A stretch of 64,000 nucleotides of DNA, from positions 79,735,301-79,799,300 of the forward strand of contig CM037592.1 in the NCBI GenBank assembly GCA_021018995.1, written 5' to 3'. The notes under the pieces were generated by a model. The model saw only the letters and a program-made list of their open reading frames with translations, had not been told where the DNA came from and searched no databases. Within the stretch, counting starts at the first letter, position 1. Every line of letters begins with the position of its first letter. Below, in pieces: positions 28,376-64,000 of this stretch. Source of the stretch: Chloranthus sessilifolius (Eukaryota > Streptophyta > Magnoliopsida > Chloranthales > Chloranthaceae). The position numbers and the translations under genes are program-made.

Positions 28376-30514
28376 GGTGAGTTACCCAAAAGGGTCTCAA
28401 CTCTTTCTAATTTACCCACAGGGTCTAGACCCTAAAGTTTGTTTCAATATTTACCTGCAAGGGTCTAAAAAATTCTGCACATGTCTTTTCGGTATACATT
28501 AAGTTAAATTTTAATGGACCAAAATACCCCAATGTACATGTACTAAAATACCCCTTATTTCACCTCAGTTATATTAAACTCCTGCCATTTAAAATCCATC
28601 CTCCATACAATTTCCATTTCTCTATCAACCATTGTGTCAGCCATCTTCCTCCTCACCGGTTCGCGCCGCTCGTCAAACGACGATCCACTCTCTCATCTCC
28701 TCCACGGTTCTCATTGCTCGTCAAACGATGATCCACTATCATCTTTTTCTCACCGATTCTCGCATCGTCTATGTTACCGGTTCCAAGTATTGCAGAGAAA
28801 GTCATAGCGATAACGACAATCCACTCTCTCATCTTCTTCTCCGTCAGTGGTTCTCGCATTGTCTTCATCATCTGTGTCGTCGATTCCATGAATTGCAGAG
28901 AAAATCACATTCTTTAGGGTTTAAACTCCTAAAAACATAATCTTTAAGAGTATTAATGATTCGTTCTTAGGGTTTAAACCCCTAGAGCTATAGAGATTCG
29001 TCACTGGACTTGTATGCATGTTTTGCATTTGTAAAATCTTAACCTTTAGGGTTTAAATTTTTTATTTTTGTTTGTGTGAATAAAAATGTGATACTTAATC
29101 CTTGGAAAAATAAAAAATTTTAGATAATAAATTATTATTTTTCTAGTTTTGAATGTGTAAAATCATAATCTTTGGGGTTCAGGCTTGTAATTTTTGTTTA
29201 TTTGTGAAAAAAATATAAAAATCTTTATCAAGTCATGATCAGACTTTTATAAGTCATGATTAGTCTTTTATAAGCCTGTAATATCCATTAGTTATCCCAT
29301 GGCTTTTAGTATATGTTTATTTTCAACGAATTAAAACCCTAAATCCCATGTGACTACATGTATGTATTTTTACATATGTAAAACCCTAATCTTTACGGCT
29401 TAGACTTTGATTTTTATTTGTTTGAATGGAAATGTGATATTTAATCTTTCAAAAATACAAAAATCCAGATAATTTTTTTTTATTATCATTTCCTAGTTTT
29501 GCTTGCGTGAAACTCTAAGTTTTAAAGTTCGGGCTTATGATTTTTATTTATTTCTAAAAAAACTATAAAAATCTTTATCAAGTAACGACTAGTCTATTAT
29601 TACATGACAATTTATTTGTATTACATGCTTCCATTAGATGGATCATGCCCATTAGATGTATTACATTCTTTTATAAGACTGTAATGTCCATTTGTTAGCC
29701 CACTACTTTAAATTTTTATTTATTTTCGACTATTCAAAACCCTAAATCTCATGTCACTACTTGTATCATTTTCTAGTTTTATCATTTTTTTATCATTTTC
29801 TAGTTTTTTTTTTATCATTTTTTTTAGTTTATTCTAATGAAAATATGCTATTTAATCTTTTGAAAATATAAACATTTAGATAAAAATTAGTTTTTTTAAT
29901 CCTTTTCTAGTCAGGCTTGTGATTTTTATTTATTTGCAAAAAATTATAAATTTTACTATCAAGTCTTGGCCAGTCTATTATTACATGGCGATTTATTTGT
30001 ATTGCATGCTTCCATTATAGATTAAAATTTTATTAGATAGATTAGCTCTTTTTAAGTCATGATCAGTCTCTTATAAGACCGTAATGTCTATTTGTGAATC
30101 CGTTATTTCTTTAAGACTTGATTAGTCTTCTATAAGACTGTAATGTCCATTTGTTAGCGCGCTGTTTCTTTAAGAGATCTCTAGTTCGTCTTCCATTTTT
30201 TAGCCCGTTGTTTAACTCTAAGGCATGCCAATACAACACAGTAAGTTTGTCCTACGATTACAAAAAACCTATATAAGTGTCATATAGGACTCATATCAGA
30301 TTGCACAATAGTGGCCTATAGAATAGAATATTCATATCATACTTTTGTCAGACTCATATCAGGCTTATATGAGACTTTAGCATCTATTTTTTTTTATAGA
30401 AGACTCATATGAGTCTGTTACCCAAAATATCAATTGATTTCGCGTTTACTAATCACTCATCTTATTGTTTTCACTCATCTTATTGTTTCTGTAGTTGCTT
30501 TGTACTCTTTACAG
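28376..30514 (+). repeat. outer left arm of MULE B
   Basis: A non-coding terminal region. 28640-28910 has three roughly 65-100-bp GC-richer repeats (CGTCAAACGA, GATCCACTCTCTCATC, GGTTCTCGCATTG). 28910-29080 carries TAGGGTTTAAA phrases. 29228-30120 holds three approximate tandem blocks starting TTATCAAGT at about 29226, 29575 and 29954, each with CAGTCTATTATTACATG and AGACTGTAATGTCCATTTGT-type phrases. From about 29525 onward it is mirrored at 63040-64000. Confidence 0.75.
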
Positions 30515-31028
30515 TTCGACCAAAAGCCACTATGCATTAGCCTGTATTGATACGGTGAAACACAAACTATTTTTGCTAGAGCAATCGACTTCTGTTGATT
30601 TACCAATATATAAATCATATTTATCTGCTCTAGTGAGGGATTGAAATGCATAAAATTTTATGTTTGTTACACGACTTTTCCTTTTTGAGAAAGTTGTTAC
30701 TGATTTACAGGTTTTATATTGTCACTTTTTAGGGTTTTCATCATCCTCGCCCTCTCTACATGAATGGAGCAACATATGCATTAAGCAAAAGCTTTCGCGA
30801 ACAACTTACATGATAGAATGCCTCCAAAAATAGGGGCGCAAATCAATTGATTGGGCACCGCTTGTAATGAAATATGTGGAGTGTATTATGCTCAGAAAGG
30901 ACATAGAGTTCACGGTGGGAAAGGAGGTGATGACAGCTTTTAGGAAGCAATATTTGAATGATATTGTGATGTATAATGATGAATCACATGAAGTAGGTAC
31001 AACAAAGGGGGGATACTGTTGGGATTAA
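30515..31028 (+). pseudogene. Ulp1-like (C48) peptidase remnant, left arm
   Basis: Ulp1 peptidases process SUMO-like tags; Ulp1 domains are carried by a class of plant MULEs. Exon-like piece 30515-30632 follows a TTTACAG acceptor and encodes SHYALACIDTVKHKLFLLEQ, then IYKSYLSAL, with the catalytic His codon at 30528-30530. A GTGAGG donor follows. The next piece (acceptor ACAG at 30707-30710) reaches SIDWAPLVMKYVECIMLRKD, then TAFRKQYLNDIVMYN, ending at a TAA near 31026. The usual Asp-Cys-Gly has become Asp-Trp-Ala (TGG at 30852-30854), so the catalytic Cys is lost. Stops also lie in 30810-30835. The N-terminal parts are absent. Confidence 0.75.
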
Positions 31029-31339
31029 ACTCCAATGAAGTTTCAAAAATATTAACATATTATTTTTGTTAAGGGTAAAAAAATAATTTAACAGTCTTAT
31101 AACACTTCAAATCTCTAATTCAAAGTACGCGATTGTAATGAGCGATCAGACAAAGGAAGTCTAGTGCGGGTTCATATCTAGATGGTCGATCAGACAGTAA
31201 TGTTGTGGCGTTTTCAAAAATTGTTCCAAAAATGTAAACAATATAGAGTGGAAAAACAGTTCTTAAAATACGGGAAACACAGTCATTTTTAGACTCTTAT
31301 TAGTGGTTTGTAAACTCTTCAACTAACTGCACAATGTGA

Positions 31340-34300
31340 GTGAGAATCGATAACCACTGACATAAGATTTATGTTACACTCTTATGAGTCTAAAAAATGA
31401 CACTTATGTAATTGTGGGTCACATAAGAGTCATTTAATGACTCTTATAAGTCTAACAAAGACTCAAGTGAGTTCAGTAAGCCTTCGATTCGATATTTACT
31501 AACATAAGAGCCATTTTAGACTATTATAAGTCTAACAAATGAAACTTATATTACTTTGGATCACATAAGTAGAAATATTTTTTACTCTTTTAAGTCTCAC
31601 CCAGCATCTCCAGAGTCCAGTTTGCACAAGATTCGATAACTTACATGAGAGTCATATAAAACTTTTATAAGTCTAACAAATGACACTTATGTAACTCTAG
31701 GTCACATGATAGTCATTTATTAATTCTTATAAGTTTAACAAAGACTCATATGAGTTAAGTATCCCTTTGATTCGATATTCATTGACATTAGATTCACGTA
31801 CAAATGACGATTATGTAACTCTAGGTCACATAAGTGTCATTTATCGACTCTAATAAGTACAACAAAGACTCATGTCAGTCTAGTAGGCCTTCGATTCGTT
31901 ATTCACTGACATCAGAGTCATGTTAGACTCTTATGAGTCTAACAAATGACTATGATGTTAGTGAGGGTCACATAAGTAGTCACTTTTATACTCATACAAG
32001 GCTCACTCAGCCTCTTGTGAATCTGGTTTGCGTAGGATTCAATATTAACATTCTAATGAGTCATGTATAAATGACGATTATGTAACTCTAGGTCACATAA
32101 GAGTCTATTATTGACCCTTATAAATCTAACCAAAACTCAAGTGAGTCCAGTAGGCAATGGATTCGTTATCCACTGACATTAGAGTCATATAAGACCCTAA
32201 GGAGTCATATACAAATGACGATTATGTAACTCTGGGTCACATAAGAATCTATTATTGACTCTTATAAGTCTATGAAAGACTCAAGTGAGTCCAGTAGACA
32301 TTGCATTCATTATTCACTGGCATCAGAGTCATGTTAGACTCAAATGAGTTACGTACAAATGACGATTATGTAACTCTGAGTCACATAAGAGTCTATTATT
32401 GACTCTTATAAGTCTAAGAAAGACTCAAGTGAGTCCAGTAAGCCTTGCATTCGCTATTCGCTGGCATTAGAGTAATGTTTTACTCTAATGAGTCATGTAT
32501 AAATGACGATTATGTAACTCTGGGTCACATAAGAGTCTATTATTGACTCTTATAAGTCTAGCAAAGACTAAAGTGAGCCCAGTAAGCCTTGCATTCGTTA
32601 TTCACTGACATCAGAGTCATGCAAGACTCTAATAAAATCATGTACAAATGATGATTATGTCACTCTGGGTCGCATAAGAGTCTATTATTGATTCTTATAA
32701 GTCTAACAAAGACTCAAGTGAGTTTAGTAGGAATTAGATTTGTTATTCACTGACATCAGAGTCATGCTCAAATGATGATTATGTAACTCTGGGTCACATG
32801 AGAGTCTACTTTTGACTCTTATAAGTCTAACAAATACTCAAGTGAGTCCAGTAGGCATTGCATTCATTATTCACTGACATTAGAGTCATTTTAAACTCTA
32901 AGGAGTCATGTTCAAATGGCGATTATGTAACTCTGGGTCACATGAGAGTCTACTATTGACTCTTATAAGTCTAACAAAGGCTCAAGTGAGTCCAGTAGGC
33001 CTTGCATTCGGTATTCACTAGCATCAGAGTCATGTTAGACTCTAATGAGTTATATATAAATGACGATTATGTAACTCTGGGACACATAAGAGTATATTAT
33101 TGACTCTTATAAGCCTAATAAAGACTCATGTTAGTCCAGTATGACTTGCATTCGTTATTCACTGCCATTAGAGTCATATTAGACTCTAACGAGTCATGTA
33201 CAAGAAAGATTATGTAACTCTTTGTCACACAGGAGTCTAATATTGACTCTTATCAGTCTAACAAAGACTCAAGTGAGTCCAGTAGGCTATGAATTCGTTA
33301 TTCACTGACATTAGAGTCATGCTAGACTCCAACGAATCATGTACAAATGACGATTATGTCACTTTGGGTCATATAAGAGTCTATTATTTACTCTTATAAG
33401 TTTAACAAAGACTCAAGTGTTAAGTAGGCCTTGGATTCATTATTCATTGACATCAGAGTCATATAAGACTCTATTGAATCATGTACAAATGACGATTATG
33501 TAATTCTAGGTCACATAAGAGTCTATTATTGACTCTTATAACTCAAGTGAGTCTAGTAGGCCTTGGATACGTTATTCACTGACATCAGAGTCTTGTACAA
33601 ATGACGATTATATCACTCTGGGTTACAAAAGAATCTATTATTGACTCTTATAAGTCTAAAAAAGACTCAAGTAAGTTCACTATGTAACTCTGGGTCACAT
33701 GAGAGTCTATTATTAACTCTTACAAGTCTAACAGAGACTCAAGTGAGTCTAGTAGGCCTGGCATTCATTATTCACTGACATTAGAGTTAAGTTAGACTCA
33801 AATGAGACATGTACAAATGACGATTACGTAACTTTGGGTAACATAAGAGTTTAATATTGACTCTTATAAGTCTAACAAAGATTGAAGTAAGTCCAGTAGG
33901 CCTTGTATTCATTATTCACTGACTTCAGAGTCATGCTTGACTCTAATGAATCACGTGCAAATGACGATTATGTCACTCGGGGTCACATACGAGTCTATTA
34001 TTGACTCTTAAAAGTCTAACAAAGGCTCAAGTGAGTCTAGTATGACTTGGAGTCGTTATTCATTGACATCAGAGTCATGTTAAACTCTAAGGAGTCATAT
34101 ATAAATAACGATTATGTCACTCTGGGTCACATAAGAGTCGATTATTGGCTCTTATAAGTCTAACAAAGACTCAAGTGATAGGACTTGGATTCGTTATTCA
34201 TTGACATCAGAGACATGTGAGACTCTAAGGAGTCATGTTCAAAATGACGATTATGAAACTCTGGGTTACATGAGAGTCTATCAATGATCAAAATTTCGGC

Positions 34301-35723
34301 CGAAATGATTGAAATTTTGGTCGAAATTATCGATTTCGGTCCCCACCAAAATGATCATATAGGACTGAAATTTTGGTCATTAAATGCATGGGATTGAAAT
34401 TATCGGCCTAAATTTCGGCCGAAATTCAAATTTTTGGCTGAAATTTTGGTTCAAATTTTTGGTTTCGTTCCCCTCCAAAACTGAAATGAAACCCAAAATT
34501 TTAATCCTTGGAGTCTATTAATAACTCTTATAAGTCTAACAAAGACTTAAGTGAGTACAGTAAGCCTGTCGTTCGTTATTCACTGACATCAGAGTCATGT
34601 TAGACTCTAACGAGTCATGTACACGCGACGATTATGTAACTCTTAGTCACAGAGAAGTCTATTATTGACTCCTATAAGCCTAACAAAGACTCAAGTGAGT
34701 CCAGTAGGCCATACATTCATTTTTCACTAGCATTAGAGTCATCCTAGATTCTAATGAATCATGTACAAATAATGATTATATAACTCGGGACACATAAGTC
34801 TATTATTAACTATTATAAGTCTAACAAAGGCTCAAGTGAGTCGAGTCGGCCTTGGACACATTTTTCACTGACATCAGAGTAATATTAGACTCTAAGGAGT
34901 CATATACAAATGACGATTATGTAACCCAAGGTCACATAAGAGTCTATTATTGACTCTTATAAGTCTAAAAAAGTCTCAAGTGAGTCCAGTGGGCCTTGCA
35001 TTCGTTAATCACTGACATCAGAGTCATGTTAGACTTTAATGAGTCATGTACAAATGACTCTGGGTCACATAAGAGTATGTTATTTACTCTCATTAGGCTA
35101 ACAAACACTGAAGTAAGTCCAGTAGGCCTTGCATTCGTTATTCACTAACATCAGAGTCCTGTTAGACTCTAATGAGTCATGTACAAATGACAATTATATA
35201 ACTCTGGGTCACATAAGAGTCTATTATTGACTCTTATAAGTCTAACAAAGACTCACGTGAGTTGAGTAGGCCTTGCATTCATTATTCACTGACATCAGAG
35301 TTATGCAAGACTCTAATAAATCATGTACAAATGACGATTATGTCACTCTGGGTCACATAAGAATCTACTATTGACTCTTATAAGTCTAATAAAGACACAA
35401 GTGAGTCCAGTAGGCCTTGGATTCGTTATTCGCTGACATCAAAGTCATGTTAGGCTCTAAGGGGTCATGTACAAATGACGATTATGTCCTCTGAGTTACA
35501 AAAGAGTCTATTATTGATTCTTATAAGCCTAACAAAGACTCAAGTGAGTCCAGTAGGACTTGGATTCGATATTCATTTTTATCAGAGTCATGTTAGACTC
35601 TAAGGAGTCATGTAGAAATGATGATTATGTAACTCTGGTCACATGAGAGTCTATTATTGACTCTTAAATGTCTAACCAAGACTTTAGTAAGTTCAGTAGG
35701 CCTTGTATTCATTATTCACTGGC
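31340..35723 (+). repeat. 144-bp tandem array, left forward block (about 30 units)
   Basis: Units of 144-145 bp (GAGTCTATTATTGAC at 32389, 32533, 32678) with TGACTCTTATAAGTCTAACA, GACTCAAGTGAGTCCAGTAG, CATTCGTTATTCACTGACAT, TGAGTCATGTACAAATGACG and ACTCTGGGTCACATAAGAG. A typical unit has seven or eight GAGTC/GACTC pentamers. The first units (31340-32100) are a distinct variant mirrored at 61400-62130. One MITE interrupts it at 34282. The block ends in the Tekay fragment. Confidence 0.95.
34282..34510. mobile_element. 229-bp hAT-like MITE, target duplication GAGTCTAT
   Basis: An insert in one 144-bp unit, flanked by GAGTCTAT at 34274-34281 and 34511-34518. Its ends are inverted: CAATGATCAAAATTTCGG at the left, and CAAGGATTAAAATTTTGG when the right end is read in reverse. 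The interior is rich in AAATTTCGGCCGAAAT palindromes. An 8-bp duplication fits the hAT superfamily; the family is not identified. Confidence 0.8.
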
Positions 35724-37126
35724 AAGACCCAGTACTGACCAAGATACATCAAGATGTAACCGAGGGCATCAGATCCGACTTTACAATCAAGGAGGATGGC
35801 TCCTTATTGTTTAAGGGCCGCCTCTGTATTCCGGATAATGCTGATGTAAGACGAGCGATTCTTGATGAATCCCACAAGTCAAGCTATACTATCCACCTGG
35901 GGAGCACGAAGATGTATCAAGATCTGAAAAAGAACTACTGGTGGAGAGGTTTGAAACAAGACGTGGCAGAGTACGTGTCGCGGTGTTTGATGTGCCAACA
36001 AGTGAAGATTGATTATAGACACCCCGCAGGTCTATTACAACCCCTACCTATACCGGAATGGAAGTGGGAATCGATCTCCATGGACTTCATAGTCGGGCTA
36101 CCGCAAACTGCAAAGAAGAACAATGCCATTTGGGTAGTGGTCGATCGATTGACCAAGTCAGCACACTTCTTGCCTTACCACACGATGTACACGGCGGGAA
36201 GACTAGCAGAGAATTATATGAAAGAGATTGTCTGTTTGCATGGGATTTCGAGTAGTATTGTTTCAGGCCGGGACCCATTGTATACATCAAAGGTTTGGAA
36301 GAAATTTCAAGGAATGGGAACGAGACTAAATTTCAGTACGACGTTCCACCCACAAATCGACGGACAGACTGAGAGGGTCAATCAAATTATTGAAGACATG
36401 CTTAGGGCATGTATGTTGGAATTACAAGGATCGTGGGATCAACACCTACCATTGATTGAGTTCGCATATAACAACAGTTTTCATACGAGCATTGGGATGG
36501 CACTGTATGAAGCCTTGTAAGGAAGGCGATGCAAATCGCCAATCAATTGGGAGGAAACTGGGGAGAAATTTGTTTTGGGACCCGAGTTACTTGAAGATAA
36601 CACCGCTATTGTTCGCATGATCAGAGAAAGACTAAAGGCGGCTCAAAGCAGACAGAAAAGCTACGCTGATATCAAGCGAACGAGCGTGGACTTTAAGGTG
36701 GGAGAACATGTTTTCGTGAAGGTATCGCCTATGAAGGGCGTGATGAGGTTCGAAAAGAGAGGGAAGCTAAGTCCCCGCTATCTTGGACCGTTTGAAGTTT
36801 TGGGTCGAGTAGGGGAAGTTGCTTACCCCATTGGATTGCCACTATTATTTGATCAGGTACACAATGTATTCCACGTATCTATGCTAAGGAAGTATCTTAA
36901 TGACCCTGATCATGTGTTGAGCGGCAAATCATTCGAGATGCATGAAGATATGAGCATGATCGAAGAGCCGACGGAGATTTTGGATCGAAAGGAACAAGTG
37001 CTACGCACCAAAGTTATTCCTTTAGTGCTTGTATGCTGGAATAACCATCCGACTGAGGAAGCAACGTGGGAGAGAGAAGCAAATGTCAGAGAACAATATC
37101 CCAAATTGTTTGAGAGCTCTACCTAG
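35722..37126 (+). pseudogene. Tekay chromovirus integrase and chromodomain (5'-truncated pol)
   Basis: Similarity starts abruptly at about 35722 inside the 144-bp array; the open frame begins in array sequence at 35657. Residue numbers count from there. Integrase zinc motif: H73, H80, C110, C113 (HKSSYTIH, CLMC). Catalytic core: D143 in SMDFIVGLP and E239 in GQTERVNQ. The middle Asp is Gly204 in IVSGRDPLY (GGC at 36266-36268), which would abolish activity. A TAA at 36518-36520 interrupts the same frame, which continues at 36575 through VGEHVFVKVSPMKG and LGPFEVLGRVG to a C-terminal chromodomain (RTKVIPLVLVCW, EEATWERE). Protease, RT, RNase H, gag and 5' LTR are missing. The chromodomain type places it in Tekay (Del). 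Confidence 0.9.
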
Positions 37127-37366
37127 TGGTTTTCTTAGCAATGATGATATGTAATATTTTGACAGTATATCGATTCCTATTTTGAAACAAATAATCGAGT
37201 GTGTTTGAAAATTCGAGCATATTAGCTTAACTTTTACACGAGCGGACTACAAAGTGAATAAAGTCTCAAACGTTCACAAAGAAAAATCATGTGTGAATGA
37301 TCCCCTGAGTGTTAAAATAGACCAAGTGAAAAATACGAGCTTAGGAGAACGAGAAAAATGTTTCTG

Positions 37367-37522
37367 GGCTCGCTCGAGAGAACACTTATGCTCGCTCGTG
37401 CAAGACACATAAAATTTTGGTTCTTGACTCGCTCGAGCGAGGATTAGTGACTGCTCGAGCGAGGTCTTTTAACCACTCGAGAGAGGTCTATTGACCGCTC
37501 GAGCGAGGACAGGGTATATAAA
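37367..37522 (+). promoter_or_regulatory. palindrome cluster and TATA box upstream of the Tekay extra ORF
   Basis: Six copies of CTCGCTCGAGCGAG-type palindromes (37367-37507) are followed by TATATAAA at 37515-37522, about 200 bp before the first Met at 37723. The same palindromes occur in the 3' LTR (39897-40135), with similar linkers (TCTGGGCTCGCTCGAG, TGACCGCTCGAGCGAGGA). This stretch therefore looks copied from LTR sequence and acts plausibly as an internal promoter. Confidence 0.7.
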
Positions 37523-37722
37523 GGGAGACGAAACACTGTTTCATCATTCCTCCTTCAAGCGAGAATTCGAGCAAGAAAAGGGTTTAGGGTTTTTTATCTT
37601 CAAGCTTTTTCCCATTCGATTCGAGCCAGATTCGGACGATCCGATCCGTTCAAAACAATTCTAAAGGTAAGACCTACCCAACCTCTACCTTATTTCACTT
37701 CTTTTTCTTTCCAAAAGACCTA

Positions 37723-39008
37723 ATGGCTTCTTCAAGCCCTAATACCCAACCCAAGAAGCGAATGGCGATTCGATTGTCGTCATCGCGCAACAAAGCACCA
37801 CAACCACCACCAACCCCATCTCCTACCCCAATCGAACTAGACGATTGGTGGGGGGTAAATTTTTTTGAAACCGAATGGGATATATATCCCTCTTGTTTTG
37901 GGTATCGACGTCCACCCAATGGACATCAGATTTCCTCACCAACAATAACCCTAGACCATTACTTACCCCGTTTGGAGCTCGGTACTATCCGAGACTCGTG
38001 AAACTATTTTACCAAACCCTTAACATGAACGTGAATGAGGACGCCATCCTCGTCACGATCGAAGGAAAAGAATTAATTTTTAGCTGTGCCGAGATTTCGT
38101 CGGTCATGAAGTGCCCACACTTCTATGCCCCGAGCCCACTTATCCAACCACCTTTTTCTAGGAACGTAGAGTTCCCAACAATTATTTCTGACATCACTGG
38201 CGGCACGTCCGCTTCGGGTCAATCTATCACCCGATCTCAGCTACCGCCACACATGTGGTTTTTAGATATCATTTTTAAGAAGAACTTACACCCGACCGGC
38301 CATGATCAAGAATGCTGCGACACGTTTCTGCGAGCTTTGAACGCCACATTTCATAATAGGTGGATTAGCGCGCCCATGGTAGTCATTAAAGGCATGGCGC
38401 ATGCCTATAAAAGGAACGTAGGAGGTGCTATTCCCCCACCCATCAACCGACTACCTTATGCTCGGTTGATTTCGCGACTCCTCGACTCACGAAATGGAAA
38501 AGAAGGATTCAAGATCCAAACCGACGAGTTATCTCTTACCGATAATGTCGTCCCCTATTTAGCCCAAGACTGGAGCCGAAACTTAAAGAGCCGTCAAACT
38601 AGTGTCAACAAAGAAAGAGACCGCCAAATTTCTCGACAAGCCACGCAACAACCACCGGTGGGACCAACTGCTCCCTCTACTTCATCTTCACAGCCCCTAC
38701 CTACCATCGACACTGGCATGATGCGAGGGCTCCTCCAGCAGGGGCGGGAGATAAGGTTACATAAGAGGTTTCAGGAGGCACTACTCATAGACCTCATGGG
38801 CCAGGCATACCCGCAGTCATACATGGAGCGCGTCGGTGCCATGAGAGACGCTATTTTTGGAGCGTCTAGCTCGGGCCCTGCTACGAGGAGCACTACAGGG
38901 GGTACCACTACCGCCAGGGTGGTTGACGAGGATGAGGATGACGAGGACTACGATGATGATGATGGCTCCGGCGACGACGACGACGAGTATGAGGAGGATG
39001 ATGACTAG
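37723..39008 (+). pseudogene. additional ORF of the Tekay element (plant retroelement accessory domain)
   Basis: It starts at 37723 (MASSSPNTQPKKRMAIRL, Pro-rich) and shifts frame near 37960-37980 into the frame of 37875-39008. The body has the pattern of the plant transposon/retroelement accessory proteins often annotated as putative plant transposon protein: ARYYPRLVKLFYQTLNM, VTIEGKELIFSCAEISSVM, HMWFLDIIFKKNLHP, a helical RDRQISRQ region, and a very acidic C-terminus with runs of Asp and Glu over the last 35 or so residues. It lies between pol and the polypurine tract in sense orientation with its own candidate promoter. Function is unknown; a nuclear or DNA-linked role is my inference. 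Apart from the shift it is long and open (377 aa), so decay is modest. Confidence 0.7.
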
Positions 39009-39447
39009 GTAGTCATATAATTTTCTTTTGAAAAAATGGAAATGTAACTATTTGTTAGAACATTTCGTAGTAAGGTGGTATTTTGACATTGTATTTACAG
39101 ACTATCGTGACTTGAATATCACAAAATTTTGGGTGGTAATCTCTATTATAGCTTTGATATATATATAAATTGTTATCGCATAATAAGTTAGTATAATGAC
39201 TGTGGACTTACCAAATCATATATGAGTATCTTGTCTCTTTTGTCGTTTAAGATTGGCCTAGGTGAATGTATGAATGTGATGTATAATAAAGTATGGTTTA
39301 TAGTTGCTTAATGCAGGTCAGATCTAGGGTCATTGGACCATATGATTAACTACCTGATGATGTAAGGAACTGGCCTATTTAACGGCCTAGTAATAGTCGT
39401 ACCGAGTTAAAGAGGGTATCGCCAATTTTCGAAGACAAAAATCTTAT

Positions 39448-39460
39448 AAGGTGGGGTGAA
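39448..39460 (+). other. polypurine tract of the Tekay element
   Basis: AAGGTGGGGTGAA ends exactly where the LTR begins (TGTCATAACCCC), the normal site for plus-strand DNA priming. Confidence 0.75.
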
Positions 39461-45650: not shown

Positions 45651-45691
45651 ATTCTCAGGCTTAAAAAGGGCCCACTGCCCCCAGGAAGCAC

Positions 45692-50500: not shown

Positions 50501-50510
50501 CAAAGAGGGG
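50501..50510 (+). other. polypurine tract of the Tat element
   Basis: CAAAGAGGGG followed by CATC and the LTR start TGTAGACACCC, the layout usual in Tat elements. Confidence 0.75.
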
Positions 50511-51333: not shown

Positions 51334-51342
51334 TATAAATAG
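51334..51342 (+). promoter_or_regulatory. TATA box of the Tat LTR
   Basis: TATAAATAG in a C/T-rich context, about 800 bp into the LTR. Confidence 0.65.
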
Positions 51343-54023
51343 AGAGGCACCCCTCCCTTTACAAAGGCTTGAAAAAAATTCCTAAGTGAGAAAAGTTTAA
51401 AAGAGAGCTATTTTCACATTTGGTGCACCATTCTCCATGCAAATTCAAGAACTTAAAAGTTTCCTTTAGACCCCCTCTTCCATAAAAAATCCCTTAGTTT
51501 AGGTGAGAGTCATCCTCTAGCCTTCCCTCTCTACCTCTTAGCTTTCAAGCCCTAGGAGCTAGAATCCTTGTTCTAACCATACAAGCCATTGGAAGCTCAT
51601 CAAATCACACCTACGAAAAGGTCCATAGCGCTGTAACAAGGGCCCGAGAGCTCCGACCCTCCCCTCTATTCCTCTACCTTCTTAGTTTTTCCTCTATCCA
51701 CTCATTTGTGCCGTTACGCCATCCAAATTTTGACAAAAGTGGAGGGGCACAAAGAGGATTGTTAGTGCCTTAGGGCAAAGGGGAGTACTTTTTCCTTTTA
51801 TTTTATTTTTGTTTTGGCCACAAGTAGAGACCGCATTAAGCAGGTTGATCGGGTGCCTAACACTTTCCCGATCGATAACCGAAGCTCCTACCTAAGAGCC
51901 TTTGGTGTGAATCGGTAAATCAGAGTCATATTAGTGGCACTTCGGTGCTTATAAAATTGATTTGGGTTTCCCAGGACATCGAAATCTTTGGGTAGTGACT
52001 CTAAGTTTTTCACGAGTATGCATCGTCGCGACAGGTTCGATCAAAATCCATGGTTGCACAGTCACATAAGAGTCTATTATTGACTCTTACAAGTCTAACA
52101 AAGACTCAAGGGAGTCCAGTAGGACTTGGATTCGTTATTCACTGACATCATAGACATGTGAGACTCTAAGGAGTCATATTCAAATGACGATTATGTAACT
52201 ATGGGTCACATGAAAACCTATTATTGGCTCTTATAAGTCGAATAAAGACTCAAGTGAGTCCAATAGGCCTTGCATTCGTTATTCACTTACATCAGAGTCA
52301 TATTAGATTCTAATAAGTCATGAAAAAATAACGTTTATGTAACTCTGGGCTACATAAGAGTCTATTATTGACTCTTATAAGTCTAACAAAGACTCAAGTG
52401 AGTCCATTAGGCATGACATTCGTTGTTCGCTGACATCAGAGTTTTGTTAGACTTCTACGAGTCTTGTACAAGCAACGATTATGTAACTCTTGGTCACACA
52501 GGAGTCTATTATTGACTCTTATAAGTCTAATAAAGACTCAAGTGAGTCCTGTTGACTATGCATTTGTTATTCACTGATATCAGAGTCATGCTAGACTCTA
52601 ATGAATCATATACAAATGACGATTATGTAACTCTGGGTCACATAAGAGTTTATTATTGACTCTTATAAATCTAACAAAGGCTCAAGTGAGTCTAGTAGGC
52701 CTTGCATTCATTATTCACTTACATTAGAGTCATATTTAACTTTAACGAGTCATGTACATATGATTGTAGGTGACATAAGAGTCTATTATTGACTCTTATA
52801 AGGCTAACAAACACTGAAGTGAGTCCATTAGGCCTTGCATTTGCTATTCACTGACATCAGAGTCCTGCTAAACTCTAATGAGTTATGTACAAGTGACAAT
52901 TATATAACTTTGGGTCATATAAGAGTCTATTATTGACTCTTATTAGTCTAACAAAGACACACGTGAGTCCAGAAGGCCTTAGATTCGCTATTCATTGACA
53001 TCAGAGTTATGTTAGACTCTAATGAATCATGTACAAATGACGATTATATCACTGTGAGTCACATATGAATCTACTATTGACTCTTATAAGTATAACAAAG
53101 ACTCAAGAGAGTCCAGTAGGCCTTGGATTCGTTATTTATTGGCATTAGAGTCATTTAGACTCTAAGGAGTCATATATGATTACATTACTCTGGGTCACAT
53201 AAGAGTCTATTATTGACTCTTATAAGTCTAATAAAGCCTCAAGTGAGTCCAGTAGGCCTTGCATTCGTTACTCATTGGCATCAGAATCATGTTAGACTCT
53301 AATGAGTCATGTACAAATGACGATTATGTAACTCTAGGTCACATAAGAGTCTATTATTGACTCTTATAAGTCTAAGAAAGACTCAAGTGAGTTCAGAAAG
53401 CCATTCATTCGTTATTCACTGACATTAGAGTCATGCTAGACTCTAATGAGTCATGTATAAATGTCGATTATATAACTCTAGGTCACATAAGAGTTTATTA
53501 TTAACTCTTATAAGTCTAACAAAGACTCAAGTGAGTCCAGTAGGCCTTACATTCGTTATTCACTGACATCCGAGTCATACTAGACTCTAGTGAATCATTT
53601 ACAAATGATGACTATGTCACTCTGGGTCACATAAGAGTCTTTTATTGACTCTTATAAGTCTAACAAAGACTCAACTGAGTCAAGTAGGCCTAAGATTCAT
53701 TAATCACTTGCATTAGAGTCACGTTAAACTCTAAGGAGTCATGTTCAAATGACGATTATCTAACTTTGGGTCATTTAAGAGTCTATATTTGACTCTTTTA
53801 TGTCTAACGAAGACACAAGTGAGTCCAATAGACCTTGGATTCGTTGTTAACTTACATTAGAGTCATATTAGACTCTAAGGAATCATGTGTAAATGATGAT
53901 TATGTAACTCTGAGTCTTATAAGTGCCTATTATTGACCCTTATAAGTCTAACAAAGACTCAAGTGAGTCCTGTAGGCTTTGCATTCATTATTCACTGGCA
54001 TCAGAATCATGCTTGAATCATGA

Positions 54024-54185
54024 CACTACAAAACACAAGATTATTAGAGGTAGCCTAAAACTACTGCTATTAACAAAAAGTTGCCGCTAATGCCCATGCC
54101 GCTAATAGTCTTTAATAGTTTTTTGTTGATAGTGCCAGTTTTTTGCTCAAAAAAACTGCCGCTAATAATCTACTTTTGTGTAGTG
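54024..54185. mobile_element. CACTA-type MITE, copy 1 (162 bp, TSD TGA)
   Basis: The termini are CACTACAAAACAC and GTGTAGTG, with TGA on both sides (54021-54023, 54186-54188). The interior has repeated TGCCGCTAAT phrases in both orientations. A 3-bp duplication and CACTA ends fit En/Spm-type MITEs. Confidence 0.85.
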
Positions 54186-56900
54186 TGAGTCATTTACAAA
54201 TGACGATTATGTAACTTTGATTCATAGAAGAGTCTATTATTGACCCTTATAAGTCTAACAAAGACTCAAGTGAGTCCAGTAAGCCTTGCATTTGTTATTC
54301 ACAAACATCAGAGTCATGTTAGACTCTAATGAGCCATGTACAAATGACGATTGTGAAACTCTAGGTCACATAAGAGTCTATTATTTACTCTTATAAGCCT
54401 AACAAAGACTCAAATGACTCTAGTAGGCTTGCATTGTTTATTCACTGACTTCGGAGTTATGCTAGACTCTAATGAATCATGTACAAATGATGATTATATC
54501 ACTCAAGGTCACATCTGAGTCTATTATTGACTCTTATAAGTCTAAAAAAGACTCAAGTGAGTCCAGTGGATCTTGCATTCGTTATTCACTGACATCAGAG
54601 TCATGTTAGACTTTAATGAGTCATGTACAAATGACTCTGGGTCACGTAAGAGTCTGTTATTTACTCTAATTAGGCTAACAAACACTGAAGTGAGTCCAGT
54701 AGGCCTTGCATTCGTTATTCACTGACATCAGAGTCATGTTAGACTCTAATGAGACATCTACAAATGACGATTATGTAACTCTAGGTAACCTAAGAGACTA
54801 TTATTGACAGTTATAAGTCTAACAAAGACTGAAGTGAGTCGAGTAGCCCTTGCTTTCATTTTTCACTGACATCAAAGTCATGCTAGATGCTAATGAATTA
54901 CTTAAAAATGACGATTATGTCACTTTGGGTCACAAATGAGTTAATTATTGACTCTTATAAGTCTAACAGAGACTCAAGTGGGTCCAATAGGACTTGGATT
55001 CGTTATTCACTGACATTAGAGTTATGTTAGACTCTAAGGAGTCATGCACAAATAATGATTATGTAACTCTGGGTCATATAAGACTCTATTATTGACTCTT
55101 ACAAGTCTAACAAAGACTCAAGTGAGTCTAATAGGACTTGGATTCATTATTCACTGACATCAGAGACATGTGAAACTCTAAGGAGTCATGTTCAAGTGAC
55201 GATTATGTAACTCTGGGTCACATGAGAGTCCATTATTGACTCTTATAAGTCTAACAAAGACTCAAGTGAGTCCAGTAGGCCTTTCATTCGTTATTCACTT
55301 GCATCAGAGTCGTGTTAGATTCTAATAAGTCGTGAACAAATGACGTTTATGTAACTCTGGGTCACATAAAAGTCTATTATTGACTCTTATAAGTCTAATA
55401 AAGAATCAAGTGAGTCCATTAGGCCTGACATTTGTTGTTCACTAAAATCAGAGTTTTGTTAGACTTCTACGAGTCTTGTACAAGCGATGATTATGTAACT
55501 CTTGGTCACACAGGAGTCTATTATTTACTCTTATAAGTCTAACAAAAATTCAAGTGAGTCAAGTAGGCCTTGCATTCGCTATTCACTGACATTAGAGTCA
55601 TGTTAGACTCTAATGAGTCATGTACAAATGACGATTATCTAACTTTGGGTCACGTAAAAGCCTTTTATTGACTCTTATAAGTCTAACAAAGACTCAAGTG
55701 ATTCCAGTAGCTCTTGCATTCATTATTCACTAACATCAAAGCCATGTTTGACTTTAACGAGTCATGTACAAATGACTACGGGTGACATAAGAGTCTATTA
55801 TTGACTCTTATAAGACTAACAAACACTGAAGTGAGTCCAGTAGGCCTTGCATTCTTTTTTCACTGACATTAGAGTCCTGTTAAACTCTAATAAGTCATGT
55901 ACAAATGGCAATTATGTAACTCTAGGTCATGTAAGAGTCTATTATTGACTCTTATAAGTCTAACAAAGACTCACATGAGTCCAGTAGGCCTTGGATTCCT
56001 TATTCACTGACATCAGAGTTATGTTAGACTCTAATGAATGATGTAAAAATGACGATTATGTCACAGTGGGTCACATAAGAATCTACTATTGACTCGTATG
56101 AGTTTAAAAAAGACTCAAGTGAGTCCAGTAGGCCTTGAATTTGTTAGTTACTGACGTTAGCGTCATTTAGACTCTAAGGAGTCATGTACAAATGACGATT
56201 ACGAAACTCTGGGTCACATAAGAGTCTATTATTGACTCGTATAAGTCTAACAAAGACTCAAGCGAGTGCAGTAGGCCTTGCATTCGTTACTCACTGGCAT
56301 CAGAGTCATGTTAGACTCTAATGAGTCATGTACAAATGACGATTATGTAACTCTGGGTCACATAGGAGTCTATTATTGACTCTTATAAGTCTAATAAAGA
56401 CTCCAGTGAGTCTAGAAGGCCATTCATTCGTTATTCACTGACATCAGAGTCATGCTAGACTTTAATGAGTCATGTATAAATGTCAATTATGTAACTTTGG
56501 GTCACATAAGAGTCTATTATTAACTCTTATAAGTCTAACAAAGAATCAAGGGAGTCTAGTAGGCCTTGCATTCGTTATTCAGTGACATCCGAGTCATGCT
56601 AGACTCTAATGAATCATTTACAAATGACGACTATGTCACTCTAGGTCACATAAGAGTCTCTTGTTCACTCTTATAAGTCAAACAAAGACTCAAGTGAGTT
56701 AAGTAGGCTTATGATTCATTAATCACTGACATTAGAGTCATGTTAGACTCTAAGGAGTCATGTTCAAATGACGATTATGGAACTCTGGGTCTTATAAGTG
56801 TCTATTATTGACCCTTATAAGTCTAACAAAGACTCAATTGAGCCCAGTATGATTTGCATTCGTTATTAACTGGCATCAGAGTCATGTTTGACTCTCATGG

Positions 56901-57060
56901 TACTACAAAAAATAAGACTATTAGTGACAGCCTAAAACTATTGCTATTAACAAAAAACTGCCGCTAATGCCCTCACCGCTATAGTCATTAATAGTTTTTT
57001 GTTAATAGTGGTGTTTTTTGCTCCAAAAAATTGCTGCTAATAATCTATTTTTTTGTAGTG
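56901..57060. mobile_element. CACTA-type MITE, copy 2 (160 bp)
   Basis: The same element at the same position of its 144-bp unit, with the same flanking variants (ACTTTGATTCATAGAAGAG, TTGACCCTTATAAG). It was copied with the array rather than inserted independently. The first base is T instead of C and the 3-bp flank has diverged. Confidence 0.85.
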
Positions 57061-57156
57061 TGTCATTTACGAATGACGATTATGTAACTTTGATTCATAG
57101 AAGAGTCTATTATTGACCCTTATAAGTCTAACAAAGACTCAAGTGAGTCCAGTAAG

Positions 57157-59348
57157 TGTCATGACCCCAGATTTTTAGGAATCATGCACATCTTATACCA
57201 TGCACGCGTATGTGTGGTTCACAAGGAAACAAGAAATAACATGTATACGCTATGTGTGTATGTGAGAAACACACTAACTTTCACTAATAAGTATATAAGT
57301 AAAAAGAAAGAAGAGAGGAAATTGTAAAAGAAGGTTAGGTTCGTTGGTGTAAGCCCGTAGAAGATTTTGGGGAAGGCTAGATGAGGAACCATGAAGAGCT
57401 TTTCATCTAGTTGAAACTTGGATCGAGTTTACATCAAATACATCGATCGAGGTATGATTTAAATGTGTTTATGGTGATTAGATAATGTAGGGAGGAATTA
57501 TAAAAAGGTCTTTTTATGTTATTTAATGCTAATAAGACATTGGATAAAAGAAGGAATTATATTCTCGAATGAATCGAACACTTGTATCTATCGTGGTTCG
57601 CTCGAGCGACCTATTTGGCTCGCTTGAGCGAGGATAGAATATAAATCTGAGTATATTTTCGTTATGGGCTCGCTCGAGCGAGACCTATAGTATATGGGAA
57701 GCTAGCTCGAGCGAGGCTTTATGTAGCTCATTTTAACCGCTCGAGCGACCTCGTTTTAACTGCTCAAGCGATGAAAGGTACTCGCTCGCACGAGGGTTAG
57801 TACCTCGTTTTAACTGCTCGTGCGAGATTAAGTACTCGCTCGAGCGAGGCTAAGTGACCGCTCGAGCGAGGAATAGTGCTCACTCGCGCGAGGAACTACG
57901 CGGGTTGTATTAAATTTTAGCACAGTTCATGGGAGCTGTGTGCTCCAAAGGCCCTAGTGACCATTCTAAGCATGTTCTTAACGCATGCAATGTAGATTGA
58001 CGTGGGGATCGTTACGTATCACCGCTACGAGAGAGGACTACTTTGGATTTGCTTTGAGGTAGGGAATATCTTGAAACATGTACTTTAATTCGTCAAACAT
58101 CATGTATGTAGAGTATCTCAATCATATAGAGCAGCTCAAGAAAATCGTCATATTAAATGTGTTTTCCAACATGTGTGTGTGTGTAGGAATCTAAAAGGAG
58201 GTCATGAGGTCCCCAGGGGACATAGAATTGTAACATTGGGTATCGTAGTGATGCATTAAATCTGTAGCATCCCAGGGATGCATATGAAGCCAAATGATAA
58301 AACAAAAGAAGAACAAGAAGGCCTAATATAATATAATTAGCACAATCACGGTGAATAACTATATGTAGAGCACACTTGGTATTTTTGTTATTTAAGGTTT
58401 ATTTAGAATACCCCACCGACGTGGCGGGATACCCACGACTGACTCGACAAGATATCCATGACTGGTACCGTACACCCTAGCACATCCCAGGGATGTTAAA
58501 TTAAGAATAGACTCCGCCGCCTAAGAGAAAGGGGCCTGGGTAGTATTGAAATATAATGCATAACAAGTGTCTATTTAGACGACGATGGTGGGTATTCCAT
58601 CGGGGCTTGATGCTATATTGCTCGGGGATTACTTAAATTAAGATTTAAGTGATTAGGCCGAATCCGTTACCATAATAGTAAGATGAGAATAATAAAGTCA
58701 TGCAAAGTAACAGTGTATCCATCATTTTACTTCCGTGTGTTTCAATTTGTCTTTCAGCAGTTCTATCAGATAAATCATGCTTTTAAACTATTTTTAATAT
58801 ACATGTGAGAGCTTAATCTATATGTTTACTGTGTTTCCCTATTGAGCTAGGATGTAGCTCACCCCCCCTTAGACTATACGTCCCAGGTCCAGGACTAGCG
58901 GTAGTGGAGACTTCTGGAGACGTTGATCCAGGGGATTCAGATTTCGTGCCTACAGAAGAGTCAGAGCCTCCTCCTGAGGAATTCTTCTAAGAGACCCATT
59001 GCGTACTTTGAGAGTGAGTTGAGAGTATTAGGTAAGGCTCGGTATGTCAAGCCTCTTTATTTAAATGTAATTAAATACTGTTATTCTTTTGACAAACCGT
59101 CTGGGATGAACTGTTATCGCCAACGATTTGGGTAAGTTCTTATGCCCATGAGTTGGCATGGGACAAGAACTGTCTTTAGAGACCCTATTTATTTTAAATA
59201 TATGAGCGCTTGTTTAGAGTAGATACATGTGTCTTAATTGCAATTTTTGGCTTGTATATACCATTGCTTCGTAAAGAATCATAGGGCACGGCCTTGAGGG
59301 TCGTGCTGATGGCGCGGGTTTCGGGGTACCAAAATTTGGGCTGTCACA
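57157..59348 (+). mobile_element. 2192-bp solo LTR, Tekay family, target duplication GTAAG
   Basis: It starts TGTCATGACCCCAGATTTTT, ends GGGCTGTCACA and is flanked by GTAAG (57152-57156, 59349-59353). It is alignable throughout with the Tekay 3' LTR at 39461-41580. No internal region, so it formed by LTR-LTR recombination. The empty site is visible at about 54279-54290 in the other higher-order copy (CCAGTAAGCCTTGC). The small ORF at 58923-59135 is LTR sequence. Confidence 0.95.
57597..57893. repeat. CTCGCTCGAGCGAG palindrome cluster in the solo LTR
   Basis: Eleven copies or variants (for example GCTCGCTTGAGCGAGG, CTCGCTCGCACGAGG), three more than in the related LTR at 39461. The cluster changes copy number between family members. 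Confidence 0.9.
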
Positions 59349-60460
59349 GTAAGCCTTGTATTTGTTATTTATAGACATCAGAGTCATGTTAGACTCTAAT
59401 GAGTCATGTACAAATGACGATTATGAAACTTTGGGTCACATAAGAGTCTATTTTTTACTCTTATAAGTCTAACAAAGACTCAAGTGAGTCCAGTAGGCTT
59501 TGCATTCTTTATTCACTGACTTTGGAGTCATGCTAAACTCTAATAAATCATGTACAAATAATGATTATGTCACTCTAGGTCCTATAAGAGTCTATTATTA
59601 ACTCTTATAACTCTAAAAAAGATCCAAATGAGTCTAGTAGCCCTTGGATTCGTTATTCACTAACATCTGAGTCATGTTACCCTCTACGGAGTCATGTACA
59701 AATGTTGATTATGTAACTCTGGGTCACATAGGAGTCTATTATTAACTCTTATAAGTGTAACAAAGACTCAAGTGAATTGAGTAGGCCTTGCATTCGTTAT
59801 TTACTAGAATCAGAGTCATGTTAGACTTTAATGAGTCATATACAAATGGCGATTATATAACTCTGGGTCACATAAGAGTCTATTATTGACTCTTATAAGT
59901 CTAACGAAGACTCAAGTGTATTCAGTAGGCCTTGCATTTATTATTCACTGGCGTCATGGTCATGTTAGATTTTAATGAGTCATGTACAAATGAAAATTAT
60001 GTAACTCTACGTCACGTAAGAGTCTATTATTTACTCTTATATGTCTAACAATGACTGAAGTGACTCTAGTAGGCCTTGTATTCTTTATTCATTGACATCA
60101 GAGTCATGCTAGACTCTAATGAATCATGTATAAATGATGATTATGTCACTCTAGGTCATATAAGAGTATTATTGGCTGTTATAAGTCTAACAAAGACTCA
60201 AGTTAGTCCAGTAGGCCTTGGATTCGTTATTCACTGATATCAGAGTCATGTTAGACTATGAGGAGTAATATACAAATGATGATTATATAACTCTGGGTCA
60301 CATGAGAGTCTATTATTGACTCTTGTAAGTGTAATAAAGACTCAAGTGAGTCCAGTAGACCTTGCTTTCAATATTCACTTGCATTAAAGTCATGTTAGAC
60401 TCTAATGAATCATGTACAAATGATGATTATGTAACTCTGCGTAACATAAGAGTCTATTAT
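59349..60460 (+). repeat. 144-bp tandem array, last forward block (about 8 units)
   Basis: It continues the unit interrupted by the solo LTR and runs to the inversion point. Confidence 0.95.
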
Positions 60461-60513
60461 AGCCTTATAAGTGTCAATAATAGACACTTATGCGGCCCAG
60501 AGTTACATAATCG
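60424..60513. repeat. inversion hinge of the 144-bp array
   Basis: Left half 60424-60460 (GATTATGTAACTCTG..., GAGTCTATTAT) and right half 60477-60513 are inverted copies with a few mismatches, separated by a 16-bp spacer (AGCCTTATAAGTGTCA) that is itself a partial unit. Beyond it all units are on the minus strand. Confidence 0.9.
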
Positions 60514-62130
60514 TTATTTGTACATGACACATTAGAGTTTAACATGACTCTGATGTCAGTGAGTAACAAATCTAGAGCCGACTAGACTCACTTGAGTCAT
60601 TTTTAGACTTATGAGGGTTAATAATACTCTCTTATGTGACCCAAAGTTACATAATCGTCATTTGTACATTACTCATTAGAGTATAGCATGACTCTGATGT
60701 CAGTGAATAACGAATGCAAGGCCTACTGGAATCACTTGAGTCTTTGTTAGACTTATAAGAGTCAATGAAAGGCTTTTACGTGACCCAGAGTTAGATAATC
60801 GTCATTTGTACATGACTCATTAGAGTCTAACATGACTCTAATGTCAGTGAATAGCGAATGCAAGGCCTACTTGACTCACTTGAGTCTTTGTTAGACTTAT
60901 ATGAGTCAATCATAGACTCTTGTGTGACCCAGAGTTCCATAATCGTCACTTGTACATGACTCGTTTGAGTCTAACATTCCTCTAATGTCAGTGAATAATG
61001 AATGCAAGGCCTATTTGACTCACTTGAGTCTTTGTTAGACTTTTAAGAGTTAATAATAGACTCTTATGTGACCCAGAGTTACATAATCGTCATTTGTTCA
61101 TGACTTCTTAGAGTCTAACATGACTCTGATGTCAGTGAATAATGAATGCAATGCCTACTGGACTTACGTGAGTCTTTGTTAGAGTTATAAGAGTCAATAA
61201 TAGACTCTTATGTGACCCATAGTTACTTAATTGTCATTTGTACATGACTCGTTAGAGTTTAGCATCACTCTGATGTCAATGAATAACGAATGAATGGCTA
61301 CTTGACTCACTTGAGTCTTTATTAGACTTATAAGAGTCAATAATTGACTCTTATGTGACCCAGAGTTACATAATCGTCATTTGTACATGACTTATTAGAT
61401 AGTGAATTTCGAATCCTACGCAAACTTGACTCATGTGAGACTAAGTTACACTTACTAGAGTATAAAAGTGACTACTTATGTGACCCTCACTGACATCATA
61501 GTCATTTGTCAGACTCATAAGAGTCTAACATGACTACTATGTCAGTGAATAACGAATCCAAGGCCTACTAGACTCACATGAGTCTTTGTTAGACTCAAAG
61601 AATAGATAAATGACTCTTATGTTACCTAGAGTTATATAATCGTCATTTATACTTGACTCTGATGAGTTTAACATGACTATGATGTCAGTCAATATCCAAT
61701 CCAAGGGATACTTGACTCACATGAGTCTTTGTTAAACTTATAAGAGTCAGTAAATGACTCTCATGTGACCCAAAGTTACATAAATGTCATTTGTCTGACT
61801 TATAAAAGTCTTATATGAATCTGATGTCAGTGAATATCGAATCTTGCGCAAACTTGACTCTTGAGAGGTGGGTGAGACTTAAAAGAGTGAAAAATATTAC
61901 TACTTATGTGAGCCAAAGTAAGATAAGTGTCATTTGTTAGACTTATAATAGTCAGTCTAACATGACTCTTATGTTAGTAATTATCGAATCTAAGGCTTAC
62001 TGGACTCACTTGACTCTTTGTTTGACTTAGAAGAGTCAATAAATGACTCTTATGTGACCGATAGTTACGTAAGTGTCATTTTTTAGACTTATGAGAGTGT
62101 AACATAAATCTGATATCAGTGGCTATCGAA
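60477..62130 (-). repeat. 144-bp tandem array, inverted block (about 11 units)
   Basis: The same units in reverse complement (GACTTATAAGAGTCAATAAT, CCCAGAGTTACATAATCGTC). From about 61400 outward the units are the variant types also found at 31340-32100 (for example GCGCAAACTTGACTC, GTGAGACTTAAAAGAGTG), so the two arms mirror each other unit by unit. Confidence 0.95.
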
Positions 62131-64000
62131 TCTCACGCACATTATGCAGTTACTTGAAGAGTCTACAAACCACTAATAAGAGACTATAAACGACACTGTG
62201 TTTCCTCTATTTGAAGAACTATTTTGCCACTCAGTATTGTTTATATTTTTGGACCAATTCTTTAAAACGCCAAAACATTACTGTCAGATTGACCATCTAG
62301 ATATGAAACCGAACTAGACTTCCTTTGTCTTGTCCCTCGTCACAATCATGTACTTTGAATTAGAGATTTGAAGTGTTATAAGACTGTTAAATTATTGTTT
62401 TTACCATTAACAAAAAATAATATGTTAATATTTTTTAAACTTCACTAGAGTTTAGACCCAACAGTATCCTTGCTTTCGTTGTACCTACTTCATGTGCTTC
62501 CTCGTTATACATCACAATATTATACAAATATTAGGTCCTAAAAGCTGCCATCACCTCCTTTCCCATGGTGACCTCTATTTCCTAACGAGCATAATGCACT
62601 CTACATATGTCATTACAAGAAGTGCGCAATCAATTGGTTTGTGCTCCTATTTTGGGAGGCCTTCTGTCATGTAAGTTGTCCACGAAAGCTTTTGCGTTAA
62701 TGCATATGTTCCTCCATTCATGTAGAAAAGGCGGGGAAGAAAACCCTGAAAAGTGGCAATATAAAACATGTAAACCAGTAGCAACTTTCTTAAAGAGAAA
62801 AAGTCGTGTAACAAACATAAAGTTTTATACATTTCAATCCCTTACTAGAGCAGATAAATATGATTTTTATATTGGTAAATCAACATAAGCCGATGGCTCT
62901 AGCAAAAATAGTTCTTCAGAAATAATAAGATGAGTGATTACTAAACGCTAAATCAATCGATATTTTGGGTAACAGTCTCATATGAGTCTTCTATAGAAAA
63001 ATAGATGCTAAAGTCTCATATAAGTCTGATATGAGTATGACCAAAGTATGATATGAATCTTCTATTCTATAGAATACAGTTGTGCAATCTGATATAAGTC
63101 CTATATAACACTTATATAGTTTTTTTGTAATCATAAGACAAACTTACCATCTTGCATTGGACCTGCCTTACAACGGGCTAAAAAATGAAAGACGAACTAG
63201 AGATGTGTTTAACAAACAACAGGCTAACAAATGGATATTACAGTCTTATAAAAGACTAATCAAGTCTTCAAGAAATAACGGACCGACAAATAGACATTAT
63301 GGTCATATAAAAGACTGATCATGACTTAAAAATAGCATGATTTATCTAATAAAATCTTAATCTACAATGCAAGCATGCAATACAGATAAATCGCCATCTA
63401 ATAATAGACTGAACAAGACTTTTTTAAAAAAATTATAATTTTTTACAAATAAATAAAAATCATAAGCCTAACTCCTAAATATTAAGGTTTTACATATGAA
63501 AAACTAGAAAAGGATTAAAAAATTAAAATTTTATCTATATGTTTATATTTTCAGAAGATTAAATAACATATTTTCATTAGAACAAACCAAAATCAAAAGC
63601 CTAATCCCAAAGATTAGTTTCACGCATACAAAACTAGAAAATGATAAAATATTTTTTTATATAATTTTTATATTTTCAAAATATAAAATTTCACATTCTC
63701 TTCCAAACAAATAAAAATCAAATGCTTAAACCCTAAAGATTAGAGTTTTAGACGTGCAACAAAAATATACAAGTAGTGACATGAGATTTAGGGTTTTGAT
63801 TAGTCGAAAATAAACAAAAATTTAAAGTTGCGGGCTAACAAATGGACATTACAGTCCTATAAAAGAGTCATCATGACTTAAAAAGGGTGTGATCCATCTA
63901 ATAGAAGCATGTAATATAGATAAATTGTCATATAATAGTAGACTGGTCGTGACTTGATAATGATGTTTATTATTTTTTAACAAACAAACAAAAAGCATCA
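62131..64000 (-). repeat. right arm of MULE B (to the window edge)
   Basis: Reverse complement of about 29525-31340, including ATGTTAATATTTTTTAAACTTC, CATCTAGATATGAA, the Ulp1 remnant, AATGGACATTACAGTC and TAGGGTTTTGATTAGTCG blocks. It is cut by the window end; the terminal part should follow. Confidence 0.9.
62485..62925 (-). pseudogene. Ulp1-like (C48) peptidase remnant, right arm
   Basis: Mirror copy of 30515-31028. Here the Asp-Cys pair is kept (IDCALLVMTYVECIML; TGC codon on the minus strand at 62626-62628), but about 70 bp including the His-bearing phrase seen on the left are deleted near 62917, and stops are present. Neither arm could code for an active peptidase. Confidence 0.75.

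Follow-up and report, generated by a model that had tools for sequence, protein, structure and literature searches.

A probable foldback element of the Mutator superfamily with opposed 144-bp repeat arrays in Chloranthus sessilifolius

Described foldback elements and the Chloranthus locus

Foldback elements with tandem subrepeats, often belonging to the Mutator superfamily, are an established kind of mobile element. Foldback structure as such is known among plants from FARE in Arabidopsis, Tnr8 in rice and SoFT in the Solanaceae. The seeding of satellite DNA by mobile elements has mostly been inferred from scattered remnants. Here, we report on a 64,000-bp stretch of the Chloranthus sessilifolius genome (GenBank assembly GCA_021018995.1, contig CM037592.1; hereafter the window, C9:79735301-79799300), analysed together with the 2.17 Gb of that genome in 32 contigs. 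The window holds a large part of a palindromic element, in which two inverted arms enclose arrays of a 144-bp repeat that change orientation at a single hinge. We consider it to be a non-autonomous foldback element of the Mutator superfamily, with a probability of roughly 0.88. The foldback features seen are very long inverted repeats, best displayed by a copy on contig C6, and 144-bp subrepeats on both sides of the hinge, complementarity having been read from the sequence.

As far as the accessible portions of the literature go, the nearest known system in architecture is Tetris of Drosophila virilis, a non-autonomous foldback element that its authors put in the Mutator superfamily, which makes target duplications of 8-10 bp and for which they claim the first role of foldbacks in satellite making (PMC4079207). 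In both elements, the long inverted repeats have a flank on the outside and tandem repeats, of about 220 bp in Tetris, on the inside, and the repeat also forms kilobase satellite-like arrays. Tetris, however, is an animal element with inverted repeats of at most 1,735 bp, a middle domain and three structurally complete copies, and the available part of its description reports that no transposase source was found (PMC4079207). The Chloranthus element, in contrast, has 4.9-7.2 kb per side (in the C6 copy), a hinge placed directly between opposed arrays, transposase-bearing Mutator-like elements (MULEs) with both of its end types, and a second amplification, of 2.12-kb units. A review on how satellites arise from mobile elements names Tetris as the foldback case in the accessible part of its table (PMC9659126).

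Tm1, a Mutator/Foldback family of root-knot nematodes, resembles the Chloranthus element in several ways (PMC3169594, accessible portion): its inverted repeats are composite and foldback-like, its target duplications are 9 bp long, its 7-bp terminal motifs are asymmetric, and a putative transposase is present in some members and absent from others. The end motifs found here are GGGTGAG, and GAGTTAA before TTACCC. The internal motif of Tm1 is, however, about 14 bp long, and the same portion describes no arrays of the 144-bp scale. Plant MULEs with tandem terminal inverted repeats are similar in that their terminal sequence is duplicated and they are able to transpose (PMC3310237), but whole terminal repeats stand in tandem there, lengths peak at 1.3-1.4 kb among those below 2 kb, and satellites go unmentioned in the available text. 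Among titles and abstract openings of the open-licence literature, we found no plant MULE foldback with arrays of such a kind; a published description elsewhere is possible. Overall, we rate the foldback kind as known, and as new here the large scale, the hinge between opposed arrays, the transposase family with both ends and the second tier of 2.12-kb units.

Termini, arms and flip point of the window copy

The left boundary of the element lies at 28375 (GGGTGAGTTACCC; coordinates without a contig name are those of the window), where the likeness to other copies ends and the flanks diverge. Its right terminus, GGGTAATTAACTC, was located through a genome-wide match to a query of 28300-29300 at C9:79931280 (window coordinate 195980), 132 kb past the window end; a search up to 26 kb beyond the window end had not found it there. 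An exact 9-bp duplication, TTCTTACAA, is present at both ends, the left copy at 28366-28374 (plus strand) and the right copy at C9:79931281-79931289 (195981-195989). The outer flanks, joined with one TTCTTACAA between them, match window positions 9628-7646 at 91.6% over 1984 columns, gapless at the junction. This stretch (7646-9628, minus strand) is a paralogous empty site with a single TTCTTACAA at 8949-8957. Given the matched flanks and this uninterrupted copy, the 168-kb interval 28375-195980 is a single insertion, enlarged afterwards by nested insertions; asymmetric ends, a 9-bp target duplication and an empty site together amount to one insertion, and its boundaries are fixed by the exact duplication at its ends along with the empty site in the same window. 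Beyond the window, we read 67965-90000 and four short stretches, which cover part of the 168 kb only.

The left terminus belongs to what we call the L type (GGGTGAGTTACCCAAAAGGGTC, 28375-28562, plus strand), also found 3' of MULE transposases. It is followed by the left arm (28563-31340, plus strand), an inverted copy of the right arm, and by forward 144-bp arrays at 31341-34283, 34511-35721, 52061-57156 and 59349-60459 (all plus strand), the last of which reaches the hinge (60440-60480). There, forward units give way to reverse units, which fill 60460-62133 (minus strand), and the right arm begins (62134-64000, minus strand, to the window end). Tandem Repeats Finder called the arrays of about 144 bp at 31378-34281, 34511-35721, 52061-56899 and 59347-60472 in forward orientation and at 60460-62132 in the opposite one, so that the orientation flips only once in the window, at about 60460. 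Self-BLAST paired 30565-32973 with 62913-60460 (85.2%, 2462 columns) and 29822-30470 with 63592-62920 (83.3%, 683 columns), with fainter arm matches extending out to 29000 and 63998. The first-pass annotation had proposed two inverted arms enclosing 144-bp arrays around a single hinge, which is borne out, and had looked for a matching terminus beyond 64000, which is merely the window end; this terminus is the one at C9:79931280, with its copy of TTCTTACAA.

Three stretches split the forward arrays: a short non-array stretch (34284-34510), retroelement pieces with integrase H2C2, rve, a Transposase_32-like match below cut-off and a plant mobile domain (35722-52060), and an LTR-like (long terminal repeat) insertion with TG...CA ends and a 5-bp duplication, GTAAG (57157-59348, boundaries set by eye). 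The latter two make up much of the size between 28 and 64 kb, and the native sequence between 28375 and 67965 comes to about 20.8 kb with hand-set boundaries. The early description has the element as giant and maybe undescribed; it is an unusually large variant, but the size is largely due to insertion and the kind is known as foldback.

The right arm carries the second amplification. At least nine tandem 2.12-kb units, some of them partial, separated by long stretches and running past the window, start at window coordinates 62208, 64332, 66451, 91625, 114052, 116176, 130762, 132728 and 161844; 23 kb of other sequence interrupt the third (66451). Over aligned parts, the units are 95-97% identical to the second unit, as against 86-90% to the right arm of the C6 copy, which suggests that the series grew in the window copy's own lineage. 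The arm search revealed no comparable 2.12-kb series at the other loci.

Palindrome copies and the transposase-bearing family

A hinge query matched across the junction at five loci, those of the window, C2, C7, C6 and C11 (among the best 40 of 81 candidates). The junctions can be aligned through the flip, C11 in reverse complement and C6 and C11 with short stretches missing, and their pairwise identity ranges from 72% (C11 versus the window, gapped) to 95% (C11 versus C6). Since all five loci share a homologous flip within the 144-bp array, the palindrome has a single origin, from which copies were then made; we count the five loci as four insertions (window, C2, C7 and C6/C11). Best same-side arm segments are 86-92% identical, with lower values for the left arm of the window copy (82-87%), and left-right segments are 73-89% identical, mostly 83-89%. 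The common flip point is stronger evidence of one founder than these arm identities.

The compact C6 copy spans 12,069 bp, most of it inverted repeats (608-5138 versus 12227-7668) that are 85.5% identical over 4616 columns. No coding signal was seen in it, the longest open frame being 126 aa against a median of 102 and a maximum of 165 in 100 shuffles; it is thus a non-autonomous member of the Mutator superfamily at most. Target duplications were read in 9 of 9 positions on C10, within low-complexity sequence, and on C11, and in 8 of 9 on C6. Left flanks were compared for five of the ten possible pairs among the window, C6, C7, C2 and C10 copies; C7 and the window have a 56-bp match, and the other four pairs have none. 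The nine bases preceding the left end also differ among these copies, which we count as separate insertions. The length of the 144-bp arrays varies from copy to copy. Shorter relatives exist on C8 and C14, consisting of an L end, about 2 kb matching neither the C6 arms nor the unit, one single-orientation array and an R arm; the C8 target duplication, judged by eye, agrees in 8 of 9 positions (TTTTAGTTA/TTTTATTTA), and none convincing was found on C14.

The window also contains a coding relative, MULE A. Over 131 columns, its R-type terminus (GAGTTAAATACCC, 9629-9759, plus strand) shares 88% identity with the right end of the C6 palindrome. Further inward on the plus strand lie six 144-bp units near the 5' end (10482-11330; six cores and five evenly spaced units), a MuDR-type DNA-binding piece (PF03108, 13043-13396) below the Pfam curated cut-off, and a decayed transposase (17630-18799), in which a MULE domain in two pieces, split by a stop, precedes a SWIM zinc finger; both MULE pieces score below their curated cut-offs and the finger above. 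The other end of MULE A was sought in the window via a 9-bp duplication and end motifs and was not found, and L051 had no MULE A left end at the expected place. A second MULE A-type copy, on C5, is alike over 3.7 kb, its six-unit array being 91.7% identical; it was recognised without its transposase tail in view. Also on C5, a pair of MULE A-type termini is arranged head to head with 128 bp between them (L053, C5:11514501-11520500, positions 5801 and 5929).

The first-pass annotation had the same 144-bp repeat occurring as six units in a coding MULE A. Six units are indeed present, but MULE A is decayed, and when 106 units of the window and C6 palindromes are compared by consensus with 10 MULE A-type units, only 95 of 144 places are the same. 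A 14-bp core, GACTCTTATAAGTC, is identical in both; it was counted 84 times in the window copy and 43 times in C6 (at most 5 mismatches in 14). The best 42-bp block shares 36 of 42 places, a value reached in 551 of 20000 shuffles.

With the tail of MULE A as query, 150 genome matches were obtained, itself included (the best 150 of 5051 candidates). An inward, same-strand transposase match lies within 60 kb of 28 of 40 R-type ends, in 24 cases at 3.5-9.1 kb; two of the others have a match in the wrong orientation only and ten have none within that distance. Comparison of 40 L-type ends with the 150 transposase matches gave nine pairs within 60 kb, against about 0.33 expected by chance. In eight of these, the L end is 3' of the transposase and faces inward, 11-54 kb away; the ninth is the window element's own L end beside MULE A. 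At C4:122214690-122235331 and C10:116933494-116950772, a transposase match is accompanied by both an L and an R end, with exact 9-bp duplications (TAATAAAAA and TAAGCGAAA) and R ends that are 77% identical to that of MULE A over 257-273 columns. At another C10 MULE, at 9.82 Mb, the R end was not at the guessed position. Because L and R end types flank transposase matches, the palindrome carries both ends of a transposase-bearing MULE family.

The host region of the window element is itself a large inverted duplication, from 9628 down to about 1980 against 27698-28374 and the right flank. Window 1980-9628 aligns with 27698-28374 plus C9:79931290 onwards at 92% over 2992 columns, followed by pieces of 81-82%. 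The inner boundary common to both arms (9628/27698) is the edge of MULE A, with a spacer at 9629-27697; the outer ends were sought and not found. Possibly, this duplication arose from aberrant transposition of MULE A.

Alternative explanations and a proposed history

Several observations weigh against a once-made Mutator foldback moved by this family. No target duplication could be read at C7, C2 or C3 (C7 and C2 are without a right terminus, and the right end of C3 has diverged); the expectation that other copies would share both the ends and a 9-bp duplication is borne out by C10, C11 and, nearly, C6. On C10 and C3, arms are present at either end, with no hinge-spanning match among the best 40 of 81 candidates. 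The number of independent insertions is reduced by C6 and C11, which are probably one insertion in a locus later duplicated: around C6:109719900 and C11:61214883, the left flanks share 93% identity for 1.5 kb, but the likeness of the right flanks extends over 108 bp only. Left-right and same-side arm identities are close, so that the two sides are only slightly separated. As the compact C6 palindrome has no transposase of its own, we infer mobilisation in trans; the complete MULEs on C4 and C10 are known from ends and transposase matches, and four stops interrupt the C10 match. The C8 and C14 relatives were rejected as simple progenitors, their array orientation being opposite relative to the R arm. 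Finally, it is speculative that the 144-bp units multiply transposase-binding sites, a role to which the block clustering lends weak support.

It might be argued that the window holds an ordinary satellite array with MULE-like flanks by chance. Indeed, among 21 array loci (from the best 40 of 272 candidates), seven have no family end or arm within 20 kb among those listed, one of which, at C2:24.57 Mb, comprises about 20 units (22 cores) in a single orientation, with no family ends in the 10 kb read (L049, C2:24569001-24579000, array at 3958-7082); it may stand free or be what is left of a different MULE. The first-pass annotation had named arrays elsewhere without MULE ends as what would make this an ordinary satellite, which partly applies. 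They weaken the notion that arrays are always inside a MULE, but not the identity of the window element, given that the other 14 of the 21 loci do have one in that range, where chance would give 0.03, and that ends, arms, array and hinge recur together at other loci. For the window copy, the exact 9-bp duplication and above all the empty site refute the satellite explanation, which we find scarcely credible. What stands of the earlier picture is that the arrays sit in a mobile-element frame, as one MULE insertion; they are kilobase-sized, and "satellite-scale" was overstated. A segmental inverted duplication or assembly artefact with no transposon at all is very improbable too, if marginally less so. 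The host region is, after all, a large inverted duplication and the 168-kb interval is repeat-rich, but the homologous hinge is also found on C2, C6, C7 and C11, target duplications occur on C6 and C11, and the C6 arms are about 15% apart, unlike an assembly fold.

An accidental meeting of two separate MULE fragments deserves mention, as R-arm copies without a listed partner are common and the head-to-head termini on C5 illustrate such proximity. Such an accident would, however, need both the TTCTTACAA match and the empty site to be coincidental, and it is at odds with the hinge common to other copies and with the one L and one R end bounded by identical 9-bp duplications, as also on C10 and C11 (8 of 9 on C6); we give it hardly any credence. 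A different matter is how the founder palindrome was formed. A possible though less likely course is that two head-to-head MULEs recombined and that no template switching in gap repair was involved; the same C5 termini speak for it. The palindrome has one L and one R terminus, and its inverted R arm starts about 190 bp inside the L end, which suits a switch within one element without being decisive.

For the foldback element favoured here, the following history can be proposed. The ancestor would have been a non-autonomous relative with an R arm and an array. Of its 3' side, about 190 bp of L terminus would have been retained, an inverted copy of the 5' arm and array taking the place of everything else there. 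The probable route is template switching in gap repair at short inverted motifs (GACTC...GAGTC) present in each unit. The palindrome would then have been moved in trans by the MULE A-type transposase family, as the ends common to it and to transposase-bearing MULEs suggest. Arrays, and later a piece of an arm, may have expanded by unequal exchange or slippage, and retroelements would then have inserted into the arrays, a step seen in part. It is tempting, if doubtful, to suppose a MULE lineage whose main body is a ready-made pair of opposed satellite-like arrays, in which each unit would add another binding site for the transposase. Once inserted, such a lineage would generate new and larger tandem repeats out of its own arm and so act as a mobile source of satellites, its transposase family being still in the genome. 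One genome displays several steps, namely a decayed MULE with a six-unit array, a founder palindrome and a copy with a re-amplified arm, and the order of events, whether arrays grew before or after transposition, becomes directly testable.

Finally, the MULE A spacer contains further repeats: a tandem array of about 170-bp units with a 21-bp subperiod (19640-21070) and three copies of a 368-bp unit (22385-23500). Repeats of a palindromic 21-bp motif with TCGATTAATCGA occupy 15560-16110 and 25250-25615. DUF1985 occurs beside Ulp1-like proteases carried by MULEs, and open frames with this domain lie at 21044-21754, where the match is below the curated cut-off, and at 26356-27057.

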